From NCBI GenBank assembly GCA_018266295.1, contig JAFEAQ010000013.1, positions 1 to 46,055 of the forward strand: a stretch of DNA of 46,055 nt, given 5' to 3'. The notes beneath the pieces were generated by a model. That model was not told where the DNA came from. It searched no databases and saw nothing but the letters and a program-made list of their open reading frames with translations. Position numbers and translations under genes: made by a program. The stretch comes from Bdellovibrionales bacterium (GTDB taxonomy: Bacteria > Bdellovibrionota > Bdellovibrionia > Bdellovibrionales > Bdellovibrionaceae). Below are positions 10,513 through 38,074 of this stretch, piece after piece (the stretch's first letter is position 1; each line of letters begins with the position of its first letter).

Positions 10513-11697
10513 ATGCGAGTTTTGCTCTTCAGTCTTATCATGCTCATTTTCTGTGCAAGTTGCACTTTCAAAAAGAAAGAGGCAGCTTCTGAGAGCGCGA
10601 CGCCTGAAGTTCGTGGGGCGCCGGTCCCAAAACTAAAGGCGACGATGACTCCTGAAGCGATCAAGCCTGCGGATCGTGAAGCACAGAAAATTCTCCATTG
10701 GTTTGAGCAGATGGACGCGATCTTTCGTGAGTCCCTTTGGGTGATTCGTAAGGAGCGCGCTCCGCAAGGAAAATCGATTTTCGGTAAGTTTCAAAGAGCG
10801 CTTCTGGTGGATATGAAGCAGAAGCTTTCGAACAAATCTCTGTTCCGATGCGATGTCTACTCGATGACTCGGAATGTGTCCGGCCTTGGGGGAGTTCCGC
10901 AAAATGCGGAGGTTATGCATCAGTGTAACACCAAAGAAAGCTTCATCAAAATCGGTGACTGGAATCATGCAAAGGACACGGAGCTTACCATGAACTTCCG
11001 TGGTGGCAATCTCTCGGAGGTTCTGGGTTTTACAACCGGGATTTTAAGTCCGCGGATCAGTTGTAAACTGAAGTCGTCCGAAAATGGCATTATTGAAAAT
11101 TTCAGCTGTGACGGATTTATGATTGATTATAATCCGGCAAAAAATCAGGTCTTGCGGTTTAATCAATACGAATACCAAAAAAACTCCAAGAACATGCTTT
11201 ATATCAAAGCGGAAGTTTTGGAAAATCTTGATCCGGTGAAGAAGATTGAAGTGAATATTCCTATGGAAGGAAAGATCACCGTCACAGAAACTGTTTTGCA
11301 ACAGCCTGAGTATCTGGCAAAACAAGTTCCGGCAACGCCGACCCCGGCGCCAAGTGTTTCTCCGACAGCAAACCTAGAAGCCATTAGTGCAGAGGATATT
11401 TATCATGACCGCAACGGCAAAGAAATCGACCGTCAAGAAAACCCGCAAAGCCGCGGCATCCGCGCGCCAAAAGCCCCAAAACAGCAACAGCCGCAAAACT
11501 CTTACGAAGGCGTCACGGAAAGCAACGACCAAGCGAATCCCGAAGACCAACAGCAAATCCAACAGCAGCAAGTCATCCAACAGCCGCCTCAGCTCCAGCA
11601 AGGGCAGCCTCAAGGAGAGCCTCAGCAGGAAGCCGTCCCGGCCAACGGCCAAGACCTCGACCCGCATGAACAAAACCGCGAGCAAAACACCCGCTAG
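10513..11697 (+). CDS. lipoprotein with Gln/Pro-rich C-terminal tail
   Basis: A 394-aa predicted lipoprotein with lipobox FCASC (acylated Cys17). Residues about 50-270 look like a mixed alpha/beta globular domain that I do not recognise. From about residue 275 it becomes low complexity: a Thr/Pro linker, then a long Gln/Pro/Asn-rich tail ending at 11697. The tail is read from DNA that is also open in the +1 frame, where it encodes the basic N-terminal extension of the peroxiredoxin below. About 23 of the 300 plus-strand bases at 11401-11700 are T, so stop codons are rare in every plus frame and open frames alone prove little. The body of the protein is well supported; the tail after about residue 297 is less sure. 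Confidence 0.72.
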   Translation: MRVLLFSLIMLIFCASCTFKKKEAASESATPEVRGAPVPKLKATMTPEAIKPADREAQKILHWFEQMDAIFRESLWVIRKERAPQGKSIFGKFQRALLVDMKQKLSNKSLFRCDVYSMTRNVSGLGGVPQNAEVMHQCNTKESFIKIGDWNHAKDTELTMNFRGGNLSEVLGFTTGILSPRISCKLKSSENGIIENFSCDGFMIDYNPAKNQVLRFNQYEYQKNSKNMLYIKAEVLENLDPVKKIEVNIPMEGKITVTETVLQQPEYLAKQVPATPTPAPSVSPTANLEAISAEDIYHDRNGKEIDRQENPQSRGIRAPKAPKQQQPQNSYEGVTESNDQANPEDQQQIQQQQVIQQPPQLQQGQPQGEPQQEAVPANGQDLDPHEQNREQNTR

Positions 11698-12160
11698 CTC
11701 TATGAAGTTAAACTCAGTCGTGCCAGATTTTACAATTCCATCGACTCACAGCGGGGATGTTTCGCTTTCAAGCCTGCGCGGCAAGAAGGTGGTGTTGTAT
11801 TTTTATCCGAAAGACAATACTCCGGGCTGCACTCTCGAGGGGCAAGAGTTCAATCATCTGTATCCTGAATTTCAAAAAGCCAACACGGTGGTTTTTGGTG
11901 TGTCCCGAGACAGCGTGAAGTCGCATGACAATTTCAAATGCAAATTTGATTTTAAATTCGAGTTGCTTTCAGATGCCGACGAAAAGCTCTGTAAGATTTT
12001 TGATGTGATCAAAGAAAAGAACATGTACGGACGTAGGGTTCTTGGAATTGAGCGCAGTACATTTGTAATCAACGAAGAAGGCCAGCTTGTCGGTGAGTTC
12101 CGTAAAATCAAAGCGCCAGGCCATGCGGCAGAGATGCTCAAGTTCGTTCAAGGCCTTTAA
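11405..12160 (+). CDS. bcp: Bcp/PrxQ-type peroxiredoxin with a basic N-terminal extension
   Basis: A thiol peroxidase that reduces hydrogen peroxide and organic hydroperoxides. The canonical domain starts at MKLNSVVPDF (ATG 11702) and is 152 aa, the normal Bcp length, with peroxidatic cysteine in YPKDNTPGCT. No cysteine lies five residues later as in E. coli Bcp, so a different resolving cysteine or a 1-Cys mechanism is likely. The long form from ATG 11405 adds 99 residues rich in Lys, Ser, Thr and Arg, read inside the upstream lipoprotein gene in another frame. Start choice: 11405 has AGAGG upstream, while 11702 lacks a Shine-Dalgarno sequence but sits 4 nt after the lipoprotein stop. The tail resembles histone-H1-like basic tails and may bind DNA or RNA (inference). 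Confidence 0.8.
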   Translation: MTATAKKSTVKKTRKAAASARQKPQNSNSRKTLTKASRKATTKRIPKTNSKSNSSKSSNSRLSSSKGSLKESLSRKPSRPTAKTSTRMNKTASKTPASSMKLNSVVPDFTIPSTHSGDVSLSSLRGKKVVLYFYPKDNTPGCTLEGQEFNHLYPEFQKANTVVFGVSRDSVKSHDNFKCKFDFKFELLSDADEKLCKIFDVIKEKNMYGRRVLGIERSTFVINEEGQLVGEFRKIKAPGHAAEMLKFVQGL

Positions 12161-12181: not shown

Positions 12182-12210
12182 AAAAAAGGCGCCGAGACGG
12201 CGCCTTTTTT
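12182..12210. terminator. bidirectional Rho-independent terminator of bcp and htpG
   Basis: A 13-bp perfect stem (12182-12194 with 12198-12210) includes A6 on the left and T6 on the right around a GGCGCCG core and an AGA loop. It lies between two convergent genes and would serve both strands. Confidence 0.93.
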
Positions 12211-12227
12211 GTTTGTAGAATCAAGTT

Positions 12228-14106: not shown

Positions 14107-15186
14107 TTAGTAATTAAAATTCATTTTAGACTGAAGGCTCGCCGGCAAAGGCGGCACCTTCGAGCGTGGAATAAGGAACGTACTTAAATTAAAGAAATCA
14201 GTAAAGACTTTATGCTTGTCCGTTGCCGCCTTCAGATAGGCATGGCCGGAAGAACCGCCGGTTCCGATTTTTTGGCCGAGCATTCGATGAGCCATCAAAG
14301 CATGGCGGTAGCGCCACTGAGTTAATAACTCATCGATATCCATGAGCGAGCTTAAAATCTTAAACGGCACGTGGAAGATTGCTTGATCTCGGTAAAGATA
14401 AATCAGCAAAGCTCCGTGGAAGGCCTTAAACGACAAATGGAAATGACCTTCGTCTTGAAGCTTCTTGTAATCTTCTTCGCTGTAGGTCGCATGGAAGGTC
14501 TTCTCGGATGCATCAATCATCTCGATATTTTTCTTTTTTGCTTCGTCTGAGAGTTGTGGGTTTGTCAGAACCGTGGCGCGGTCGCCGTTAAACATATCGG
14601 TCACGGCTTGCTTGTAGGCGCCCCAGAAATCGAACTCTTTGTTTTGCAAGAACGGAGTCCGAGCAAGCCACTTATCAACCAGCTCAAAGAGGGAGTCTTT
14701 CTTCATAACCTCAGCAACAAGCTGTTGCTGTTTTTCAGGCAAGTGTTTTGAGAAAGGTGTTTGGTTGTAGAGCAGGCGTTCTTTTTCCTTGAGGCCCAGC
14801 TTGATTTCCATCAAACGGAATTGAAAGCTCTGGAATCCTGAAGCCGGGTAGAGGTATTCACGGAACTCGAGGAAATCCAGCGGTGTCATGGTCTCAAGCA
14901 CGTCGATTTGTCCCATGATCAATTTCAAAATAGAAATGACGCGGTCTAAACGGGCTGATGCCAAAGCCATATTTTGCTCAGGAATATTTTGGGCTGAGAA
15001 AATTTCAAGCACAGAGTCCACTTCAAAAAGAATTTGCTTAAACCAAAGTTCATAAGCTTGGTGAACCGTGATGAAGAGCAATTCGTCGTGAGCGGGATTT
15101 CCCATCTCTTCACTGCGGCGATTTTGCGCGCTCAGCAGTTGGTCTATCTTTAGGTAATCGTGGTAATGAATCGGTGGGTGTTTCAT
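14107..15186 (-). CDS. kynA: tryptophan 2,3-dioxygenase
   Basis: A 359-aa cytoplasmic heme enzyme that oxidises L-tryptophan to N-formylkynurenine, the first step of the kynurenine pathway. The family blocks are clear: the substrate-site region HQAYELWFKQILFEVD, the SGFQSFQFRLMEI segment, and the C-terminal GTGGSSGHAYL loop. It is longer than compact bacterial enzymes (about 280-300 aa) and nearer to eukaryotic-type length. The start MKHPPIHYHDYLK at 15186 overlaps the stop of the upstream PLP enzyme by 4 bp (ATGA), which decides the start against a longer reading to 15264. The two following pathway steps (formamidase, kynureninase) have no recognisable standard gene here. Confidence 0.94.
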   Translation of the reverse strand: MKHPPIHYHDYLKIDQLLSAQNRRSEEMGNPAHDELLFITVHQAYELWFKQILFEVDSVLEIFSAQNIPEQNMALASARLDRVISILKLIMGQIDVLETMTPLDFLEFREYLYPASGFQSFQFRLMEIKLGLKEKERLLYNQTPFSKHLPEKQQQLVAEVMKKDSLFELVDKWLARTPFLQNKEFDFWGAYKQAVTDMFNGDRATVLTNPQLSDEAKKKNIEMIDASEKTFHATYSEEDYKKLQDEGHFHLSFKAFHGALLIYLYRDQAIFHVPFKILSSLMDIDELLTQWRYRHALMAHRMLGQKIGTGGSSGHAYLKAATDKHKVFTDFFNLSTFLIPRSKVPPLPASLQSKMNFNY

Positions 15187-16208
15187 CGTGAAAGCTCCTG
15201 AAGACTTTGAACAAAGCCTTCGATATCGGACGGCTGAGTGTCCCAACTGGTCATCCAGCGGCACTCAAACGTGTGTTCGTCCCAGACATAAAAGAAATAT
15301 TTCTCGCGCAGAGGCTTGACCCAGGCCTGGGGGATTTTTGCAAAGATCGCATTGGCTTCGCGTTTTTGCGTGATGTGCACACCCGGGATGTCTTTGGCTC
15401 CTTGGTAAAGCTTTTCCGCCATTGCACAGGAATGTTCGGCAATTTCTTTCCAGAGACCGCCGTTAAAATATTCTAAAAACTGTGCGGAAATAAAACGGGT
15501 TTTAGACGGTAGCTGCGCCAATTGCTTACGGTAGAATTTGACATCTTTTGCAAGCTGAGGATTTAAAAACACCACAGCTTCACCCATCATGAGACCGTTT
15601 TTTGTGCCGCCAAAAGAAATCACATCGACGCCTAGGTCCGTGGTGAATTCTTTGAATGATTTTTTTAAGCTGACGGCCGCATTGGAAAGGCGGGCGCCAT
15701 CGATATGGACAAAAAGCTTTTCAGATTTTGCCCAACTGATGATTTCTTTAAGCTCTTCCATGGAGTACAGCGTGCCGAACTCTGTGGGCTGAGTCAGGCT
15801 CACGATCTGAGCTTGAGAATAATGCTGATCACCGCGACGGATGTGGGCGCGCTTTAAATCTTCCAGGCGAAGCTTTCCGTTCACTGTCGGGAGTGGAATG
15901 AGCTTAAGGCCTGCAAGATATTCCGGAGCCCCGCACTCATCGACGTTAATGTGCGCTAAGTCCGAGCAGTAGCAAGATTGGAAAGATTTCGAAGCCGCTT
16001 TCAGAGAAAGAACGTTGGCGGCGGTGCCGTTAAAAACGAAAAACACCTCCGCCTGCGGGCCGAAATGTTCGCGAAAAAGTTTTTCTGCTTTTTCGGTCCA
16101 TTCGTCGGTGCCGTAACTGGGGGCGTGTTCAGCATTGGCTTTTGCAAGCGCCTCCAAAATGCGGGGATGAACGCCGGAGTGATTGTCGGAACCAAAACCT
16201 CGCTTCAT
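15183..16208 (-). CDS. threonine-aldolase-family PLP enzyme (beta-eliminating lyase fold)
   Basis: A 341-aa fold-type I PLP enzyme. The N-terminus (SDNHSGVHPRIL) and HIDGAR (168-173) match low-specificity threonine aldolases, and Lys203 in SFGGTKNG is the probable Schiff-base lysine. Threonine aldolases cleave L-threonine or allo-threonine to glycine and acetaldehyde. Its place between an arginase-family enzyme and tryptophan dioxygenase, with a 4-bp overlap to the latter, makes a role in kynurenine side-chain cleavage worth testing, because kynureninase shares the fold; sequence alone favours the aldolase family. It is 11 bp downstream of the arginase-family gene. Confidence 0.85.
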   Translation of the reverse strand: MKRGFGSDNHSGVHPRILEALAKANAEHAPSYGTDEWTEKAEKLFREHFGPQAEVFFVFNGTAANVLSLKAASKSFQSCYCSDLAHINVDECGAPEYLAGLKLIPLPTVNGKLRLEDLKRAHIRRGDQHYSQAQIVSLTQPTEFGTLYSMEELKEIISWAKSEKLFVHIDGARLSNAAVSLKKSFKEFTTDLGVDVISFGGTKNGLMMGEAVVFLNPQLAKDVKFYRKQLAQLPSKTRFISAQFLEYFNGGLWKEIAEHSCAMAEKLYQGAKDIPGVHITQKREANAIFAKIPQAWVKPLREKYFFYVWDEHTFECRWMTSWDTQPSDIEGFVQSLQELSR

Positions 16209-37184: not shown

Positions 37185-37196
37185 GAGAGGATGTCT

Positions 37197-37643
37197 ATGA
37201 AATCAATCACAGAATTTGCAGTTTTCACATTGAATAAAGGTCTTGCCGCGAAAGCAGCATTGGCGAACCAAGGAAAGAGTCCTGAAGAAATCCAAACGAG
37301 TCTCGGTGAAACCTTCAAATTCGAAGGCGATAAGTTAAAGTATTTCATTAATGCGCTCGACGTAGCTGGCCAAAACCAGCAGGATTTGAAGCGTGTTTTT
37401 GTTATTTCTCTCGGTGAAGGGGAGTCTGCTCCGGCGAAAGCTGTTCAAGTTGAAGAGCACCACTATGTTCCTGAATTTTTAAACACAGCTAAGCCAGTGG
37501 CAGCTGCAACGGATGCTAAAGGCGGCCGTGGCGGAGGCAAAGGTGGACGCGGTGGTGGCCGTGGTGAGAAAAAAGGTGGATCTCCATGGGGTATGACTCC
37601 AGAAGAGAAAGCGGCGAAGGGAAAAGGCGCTCCCAAGGCCTAG
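37197..37643 (+). CDS. protein with RGG-box-like tail, unknown function
   Basis: A 148-aa cytoplasmic protein of unknown family. Residues 1-95 form a compact helical/beta domain. Residues about 105-130 are Gly/Arg/Lys-rich with repeated GGRGGG units, like RGG boxes of RNA-binding proteins, followed by a short Lys/Ala/Pro tail. RNA binding is an inference from the tail. AGAGAGG precedes the ATG at 37197 by 6 nt; the ATG at 37191 is too close to it. A strong terminator follows, so the gene is probably monocistronic. Confidence 0.75.
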   Translation: MKSITEFAVFTLNKGLAAKAALANQGKSPEEIQTSLGETFKFEGDKLKYFINALDVAGQNQQDLKRVFVISLGEGESAPAKAVQVEEHHYVPEFLNTAKPVAAATDAKGGRGGGKGGRGGGRGEKKGGSPWGMTPEEKAAKGKGAPKA

Positions 37644-37665
37644 TTTTAAATAAGAGGATTGTTCG

Positions 37666-37696
37666 AAAAAGCCGAGGAGAAGTCCTCGGCTTTTTT
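37666..37696 (+). terminator. Rho-independent terminator of the RGG-tail gene
   Basis: A 13-bp perfect stem (37666-37678 with 37683-37695) with loop GAAG and a T6 run. Confidence 0.95.
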
Positions 37697-37706
37697 GTTA
37701 TCTACT

Positions 37707-37821
37707 CACATTGGTGCTGTGATGCAGACAGAGTTAATCATGAAAAAGTACTCACAATTTACAAGAGATGTTTGAGTCGAACGCCGGACTTTGATACGGT
37801 AAAACAACACCATTGGTGTTG
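37707..37821 (+). promoter_or_regulatory. repeated operator-like sites before the XRE gene
   Basis: CAACACC-ATT-GGTGTTG (37805-37821) is a perfect 7-bp-arm palindrome 29 bp before the GTG start. A half-site copy, CACATTGGTGCTG, lies at 37707-37719. Both belong to a longer similar string of about 18 bp. TTGAGT (37772-37777) and TACGGT (37795-37800) with 17-bp spacing are a weak promoter that the palindrome would overlap. Autorepression by the XRE protein is likely. Confidence 0.4.
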
Positions 37822-37849
37822 CGACTGCCGTCAATTTAGAATTTCGAAT

Positions 37850-38074
37850 GTGGGTTCATTGGATCGAAAGTACGACGTCTTACTGACGAATATTGCAGCT
37901 AATATCAAGCGTCTGCGCAAAGATAAAGGTCTCTCTCAGAGAGAGATGGAGGCCTTCGGCTTTGATCTGCGCAACTACCAAAGACTAGAGTCCGGCAGTC
38001 ACTCTCCAAGTCTCTATACACTCTATAAACTGGGCGAGGCCTTCTGCGTGGATCTCCACGAGTTCTTCAAATAA
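37850..38074 (+). CDS. small XRE-family HTH regulator
   Basis: A 74-aa DNA-binding protein that is essentially one XRE/Cro helix-turn-helix: IAANIKRLRKDKGLSQREME, then the recognition part FDLRNYQRLESGSHSPSLYTLYKLGEAF. Start uncertain: GTG 37850 or TTG 37859. The frame stays open back into the preceding gene but crosses its terminator, so longer forms are unlikely. A palindromic site just upstream suggests autoregulation. Stand-alone Cro-like regulators are frequent in Bdellovibrio-type and phage-derived regions; no phage genes are next to it. Confidence 0.75.
   Translation: MGSLDRKYDVLLTNIAANIKRLRKDKGLSQREMEAFGFDLRNYQRLESGSHSPSLYTLYKLGEAFCVDLHEFFK

Follow-up and report, generated by a model that had tools for sequence, protein, structure and literature searches.

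When two bacterial genes that run in the same direction overlap over a long stretch, the overlap is usually put down to faulty annotation. One survey recognized no co-directional overlap longer than 60 bp as real (PMC2478687); Thermus rnpA-rpmH is a known same-strand exception, of another shape (PMC9841429). The window analysed here (the whole stretch of 46,055 nucleotides from a Bdellovibrionales bacterium) raises the question of whether a lipoprotein gene and the bcp peroxiredoxin gene that follows it truly share DNA in two frames, or whether one of the two tails encoded there is an artefact of composition. The sequence-only reading of this DNA had left both alternatives standing. Codon shuffles and comparison with relatives indicate that positions 11405-11697 are very probably true overprinting and not a composition artefact, the first alternative being favoured by the presence of the overlap in 17 species, by stop avoidance together with a Lys excess, and by substitutions of the dual-coding type. 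As a whole, genuine dual coding of these 293 nt, with the mechanism, history and tail roles proposed below, is the best explanation and appears highly likely.

The two genes and their shared stretch

The upstream gene (10513-11697, + strand, 394 aa) encodes a predicted lipoprotein with a signal peptide, a lipobox cysteine (Cys17) and four more conserved cysteines; the assignment draws on the ORF, an alignment, an AlphaFold model and the homologues that precede bcp in most family members. Read from an alignment of five sequences, C17 is invariant, and the residue at lipobox position -3 is Cys in the window (CASC), where homologues have LTSC, LVSC and VAAC. A globular domain (approximately residues 45-270) is predicted to be folded. 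It had no sequence match in Pfam, NCBIfam or PDB, and the fold search gave no confident match (best Z 7.2, to OspA; OspA-like rows at Z ∼7 are the usual background). Residues 270-394 (11320-11694, + strand) form a Gln/Pro-rich C-terminal tail that ends in Arg and is predicted to be disordered, with AlphaFold pLDDT <50.

The downstream gene, bcp/prxQ (11405-12160, + strand, 251 aa), encodes a peroxiredoxin core (11702-12160, + strand) that matches Pfam AhpC-TSA at E 3.6e-34 and the PrxQ structure PDB 5enu at E 1.7e-57. Its AhpC-TSA/Redoxin domain, related to solved PrxQ, places the protein by sequence among the Bcp/PrxQ peroxidases, and like these (PDB 5enu, 3gkn) it has the catalytic core with CP in a TPGCT motif. 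Unlike them, it carries an N-terminal tail of 99 residues rich in Lys, Ser, Thr and Arg (19 Lys, 9 Arg, 23 Ser, 14 Thr; net charge +27), a Lys-rich low-complexity segment of the histone H1-like kind. The tail is supported by the ORF and by similar tails across the order. A terminator-like hairpin at 12183-12211, downstream of bcp and common to the convergent gene, was listed for the - strand; its + strand T-run was noted by eye.

Both ORFs are open, with frames +1 apart, over 11405-11697 on the + strand. The shared stretch of 293 nt, slightly under the 11402-11697 first proposed, bears out the claim of about 290 bp read in two frames. In the lipoprotein frame it gives 97 residues with 26 Gln, 11 Pro and a net charge of -6. 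With 20-21 T, it holds less T than any other 293 nt of the 46 kb window (T is 27% window-wide). The T-poverty of the plus strand had been noticed before, with a count of about 23 T that we put at 21 for 11402-11697; the accompanying statement that stops hardly occur in any plus frame was nearly right, as the third plus frame holds two, at 11406 and 11667. When bases were shuffled with composition alone preserved, one frame stayed open in 14% of cases and both frames in 1.5%, so open frames alone are weak evidence for dual coding and the decision falls to codon-level and comparative tests. It is more plausible that dual coding led to the shortage of T than the other way round.

An antisense ORF (11374-11685, minus strand, 103 aa) also spans the overlap and was taken as a by-product of composition. 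Further same-strand ORF overlaps in the window, of 58 and 82 nt (in 37191-38074 and 14107-16208), are probably start-codon choices.

Distribution of the overlap among relatives

We searched 66 genomes of the family, nearly all of which have Bcp, and extracted the loci of most of them for reading. The assignment of the window to Bdellovibrionaceae is based on named Bdellovibrio records among its nearest matches. The genus of the window is represented by one genome only, and the nearest Bcp core elsewhere is 72% identical. The same overlap, 128-305 nt long and in an identical relative frame, is conserved between 17 species in six genera (g1, that of the window, and g5, g9, g13, g15 and g17). In all overlapping species, a profile of the lipoprotein recognized the upstream gene as homologous, at E 2.5e-14 or better. 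Two of the overlap genomes (G043 and G044) are single contigs at 99-100% completeness, and therefore assembly error does not explain the overlap. Stops or frameshifts of relatives in one of the two frames had been named beforehand as the observation that would count against overprinting; all 17 of 17 overlapping relatives were stop-free, and where the corresponding stretch does hold stops, the relative is either tail-less (Bdellovibrio Bcp) or non-overlapping (g19).

The locus occurs in three states within the family: a long overlap, a Lys-rich Bcp tail without overlap, and no Bcp tail. Bdellovibrio (g4) is of the third type; its lipoprotein has a Pro/Gln/Glu-rich tail and stops 11 nt inside bcp (xATGGCCGCTAA), which has a good Shine-Dalgarno (SD) site. 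In g19 and others the lipoprotein stops ahead of a Lys-rich Bcp tail, with a gap of 9-20 nt where both are well defined. Outside the family, at least 35 of 60 loci from members of the order and of the neighbouring class encode a Lys-rich tail on Bcp, up to 154 residues long (L179); among them are tails of the MAKKK type with an SD and no overlap. No lipoprotein homologue was found upstream of the order-level bcp loci outside the family. Such tails were found in none of 76 other loci, nearly all beta/gammaproteobacterial, and the literature searched held no description of Lys-rich N-tails on Bcp/PrxQ (bcp 5' ends L154-L213).

Codon choice in each frame

Codon usage for the shuffles was taken from genes of the window, in 18 stretches with 7631 codons in all; for the relatives, 150-500 local codons were available each, which makes their individual P values rough. 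When the Bcp amino acids of the window were kept and synonymous codons drawn, 9.2 stops were expected in the lipoprotein frame and 0 were seen (P(open) = 0.0003), and T at Bcp third positions stood at 0.02 vs. 0.25 expected (P < 1/4000). The trend to avoid stops and T was the same in all 17 overlap species. Non-overlapping Lys-rich tails mostly had 2-8 stops and T at expectation; two stop-free exceptions (L139 and L141) are from GC-rich genomes. Third-position T was 0.04 in the overlap group vs. 0.16 in the non-overlap group (Mann-Whitney P = 0.0008, uncorrected for relatedness).

These figures speak against a reading in which only the Bcp tail is real and the lipoprotein frame past approximately 11400 is non-functional read-through. 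The greater age and order-wide occurrence of the Bcp tail would suit this reading, as would the low complexity of the lipoprotein tail and its poor alignment among relatives. However, the lipoprotein has no earlier stop, so that ribosomes must continue through the stretch, and species without a Bcp tail retain a Gln/Pro-rich lipoprotein tail of similar length. The C-terminus points the same way. The window gene ends in CGC (Arg) followed by TAG (11695-11697, + strand), and Arg is the last lipoprotein residue in 51 of 56 relatives, independently of the surrounding DNA (11692-11697 in the window). Measured against bcp, the Arg-stop takes seven registers or more, the stop lying between -300 and +122 as counted from the bcp core, and its DNA differs accordingly: it falls in various bcp codons (VGS, MAAK; TPAS in the window) or in non-overlapping DNA. 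We regard the read-through reading as very improbable.

The converse shuffle kept the lipoprotein amino acids. Lys in the Bcp frame of the window then amounted to 20% vs. 11% expected (P < 1/4000), and the excess recurred in the other overlap species at P < 0.002 in 13 of 16 and at P < 0.01 in two more. In 22 tail-less controls of the Bdellovibrio type, Lys was as expected with one exception at P = 0.03. Net positive charge in the Bcp frame of the window was not above expectation (P = 0.14), which makes the signal there specific to Lys; the window tail is poorer in Lys than the tails of g17. The shuffles of the window thus point to selection in each frame given the other.

If instead only the lipoprotein tail were real, Bcp would be made from ATG 11702 by termination-reinitiation, and the basic tail would be an unused frame arising from Gln-rich codons. 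The upstream Bcp frame can indeed be open by chance, for up to 150 codons in Bdellovibrio L030, and its openness in the window is unremarkable given the lipoprotein (P = 0.23) and was not counted as evidence. The Lys excess, with Bdellovibrio controls at expectation, is not accounted for in this way, and the starts of bcp bear on the same alternative.

Start sites of bcp

An SD scan found the SD-like AGAGGA at 11391-11396 (+ strand), within lipoprotein codons and 8 nt before ATG 11405. It found no SD match for the possible short start at ATG 11702, in agreement with the earlier observation that the long bcp start alone has a ribosome site. Most overlapping relatives also have an SD-like site at the long start, AGGAGG in several. 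The predicted mRNA structure at the long start was no stronger than in shuffled sequences (z 0.59). ATG 11702 lies just 4 nt past the lipoprotein stop, near enough to allow reinitiation, a process confined to very short distances (PMC10666635), and the sister genus Bdellovibrio uses a short start. Against exclusive use of the short start stand the SD at the long one and the order-wide MAKKK-type tails that have an SD and no overlap, and we consider it improbable that the lipoprotein tail is the only real one.

Under dual coding, gene order suggests that the lipoprotein and bcp would be carried on a single mRNA. One set of ribosomes would read the lipoprotein to the TAG that ends at 11697. A second set, guided by AGAGGA, would initiate inside the lipoprotein gene at ATG 11405 and produce PrxQ with its 99-residue basic tail; internal initiation is needed for the long Bcp because its start sits 293 nt ahead of the lipoprotein stop. 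The same mRNA may also yield two forms of Bcp, one with the tail, initiated internally at 11405, and one without it, made when ribosomes reinitiate at ATG 11702, but we think this rather unlikely. If this were the case, translation of the lipoprotein would determine how much peroxidase is tethered and how much is free, and the overlap would owe its retention to this control in addition to history.

A programmed frameshift yielding a lipoprotein-peroxiredoxin fusion was also considered, and A-rich runs do lie close to the long bcp start in several relatives. Passage from the lipoprotein frame to the Bcp frame requires a +1 (or -2) shift, and a -1 shift runs into TGA at 11406. We saw no conserved site for such a shift; bcp retains its SD and start, and tails on Bcp also occur where the lipoprotein is absent. 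The frameshift was set aside on the grounds of direction, site and the retained start signals, and we rate it as extremely improbable.

Substitution pattern and compatibility of the two codes

Substitutions were compared in six species pairs (from outside the window's own genus) over approximately 98 alignable codons of overlap. Changes within the overlap are rarest at the codon position where substitutions are nonsynonymous for both proteins (16/98 vs. 62/198 elsewhere, P = 0.007), and the strong third-position peak that marks the non-overlapping parts has disappeared from the overlap (lipoprotein P = 0.001, Bcp P = 2e-7). As divergence prevents alignment of most of the tail, we take this pattern as supporting, not leading, evidence for dual coding.

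The relation between the frames is simple: bases 1-2-3 of a Bcp codon are lipoprotein codon positions 2-3-1. Bcp codons AAR, AAY and AGY (Lys, Asn and Ser) are read in the lipoprotein frame as CAR (Gln) when preceded by C, as GAR (Glu) when preceded by G, and as a stop when preceded by T. The sole hard requirement is therefore the absence of T at Bcp third positions before AAR, AAY or AGY, and the T avoidance observed matches it. With no T at these positions, a Lys-rich tail also reads as a stop-free Gln/Glu-rich tail. Both tails should tolerate drift at constant composition, since the lipoprotein tail is predicted to be disordered and the Bcp tail is of low complexity.

History of the locus

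The rpoB tree placed the window beside Bdellovibrio (support 0.73) and mixed overlap, non-overlap and tail-less states across the family. One ancestral overlap with losses fits this tree as well as several gains do. The basic Bcp tail looks ancestral to the order, judged by the sequences compared, because Lys-rich tails without overlap occur order-wide and are absent from the 76 other loci. The basic tail is probably the older partner, and the lipoprotein frame would have run into it within the family. Bdellovibrio would later have lost the Bcp tail. Absence of the Bcp tail beside a retained lipoprotein homologue is seen in Bdellovibrio and is probably also the case for L123 and L130, two loci from genera with the overlap in which the tail is seemingly lost and the end of the lipoprotein homologue still falls at the bcp core or close to it.

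Comparison with known systems and significance

In the lipoprotein-bcp case, two low-complexity tails overlap at the gene ends in a conserved manner, which is a known kind of arrangement in an unusual form. As in Thermus rnpA-rpmH (PMC9841429), one same-strand bacterial stretch would encode two functional proteins in different frames; there rpmH is fully nested and one initiation site is shared, whereas here the overlap of the tails is partial and bcp has a separate internal SD and start. Enterobacterial holD-rimI (PMC2478687) is likewise a conserved same-strand partial overlap between the 3' end of one gene and the 5' start of the next; in contrast, the overlap described here reaches 128-305 nt. 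A literature search for a lipoprotein-bcp overlap in Bdellovibrio returned nothing relevant.

For the basic tail, the histone H1-like tails of AlgP/PhaF offer a parallel as Lys-rich low-complexity tails on a bacterial protein, and that of AlgP has been linked to DNA and polyphosphate granules (PMC9239181). They differ in being C-terminal KPAA repeats with no peroxidase and no gene overlap. By its composition, the most likely role of the Bcp tail would be to tether the cytoplasmic peroxidase to DNA, RNA or polyphosphate. The lipoprotein tail, judged by its composition, would be a flexible extension that is exported and in which the last residue, Arg, is important.

The locus is a counter-example that is conserved, reaches 305 nt and shows signals of selection in each frame independently, and its non-overlapping and tail-less relatives serve as natural controls. 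It suggests that gene callers may have trimmed other pairs with disordered tails. There is a simple code-level reason why Lys-rich and Gln/Glu-rich low-complexity tails can share DNA, and the birth and loss of such an overlap are traceable within one family.
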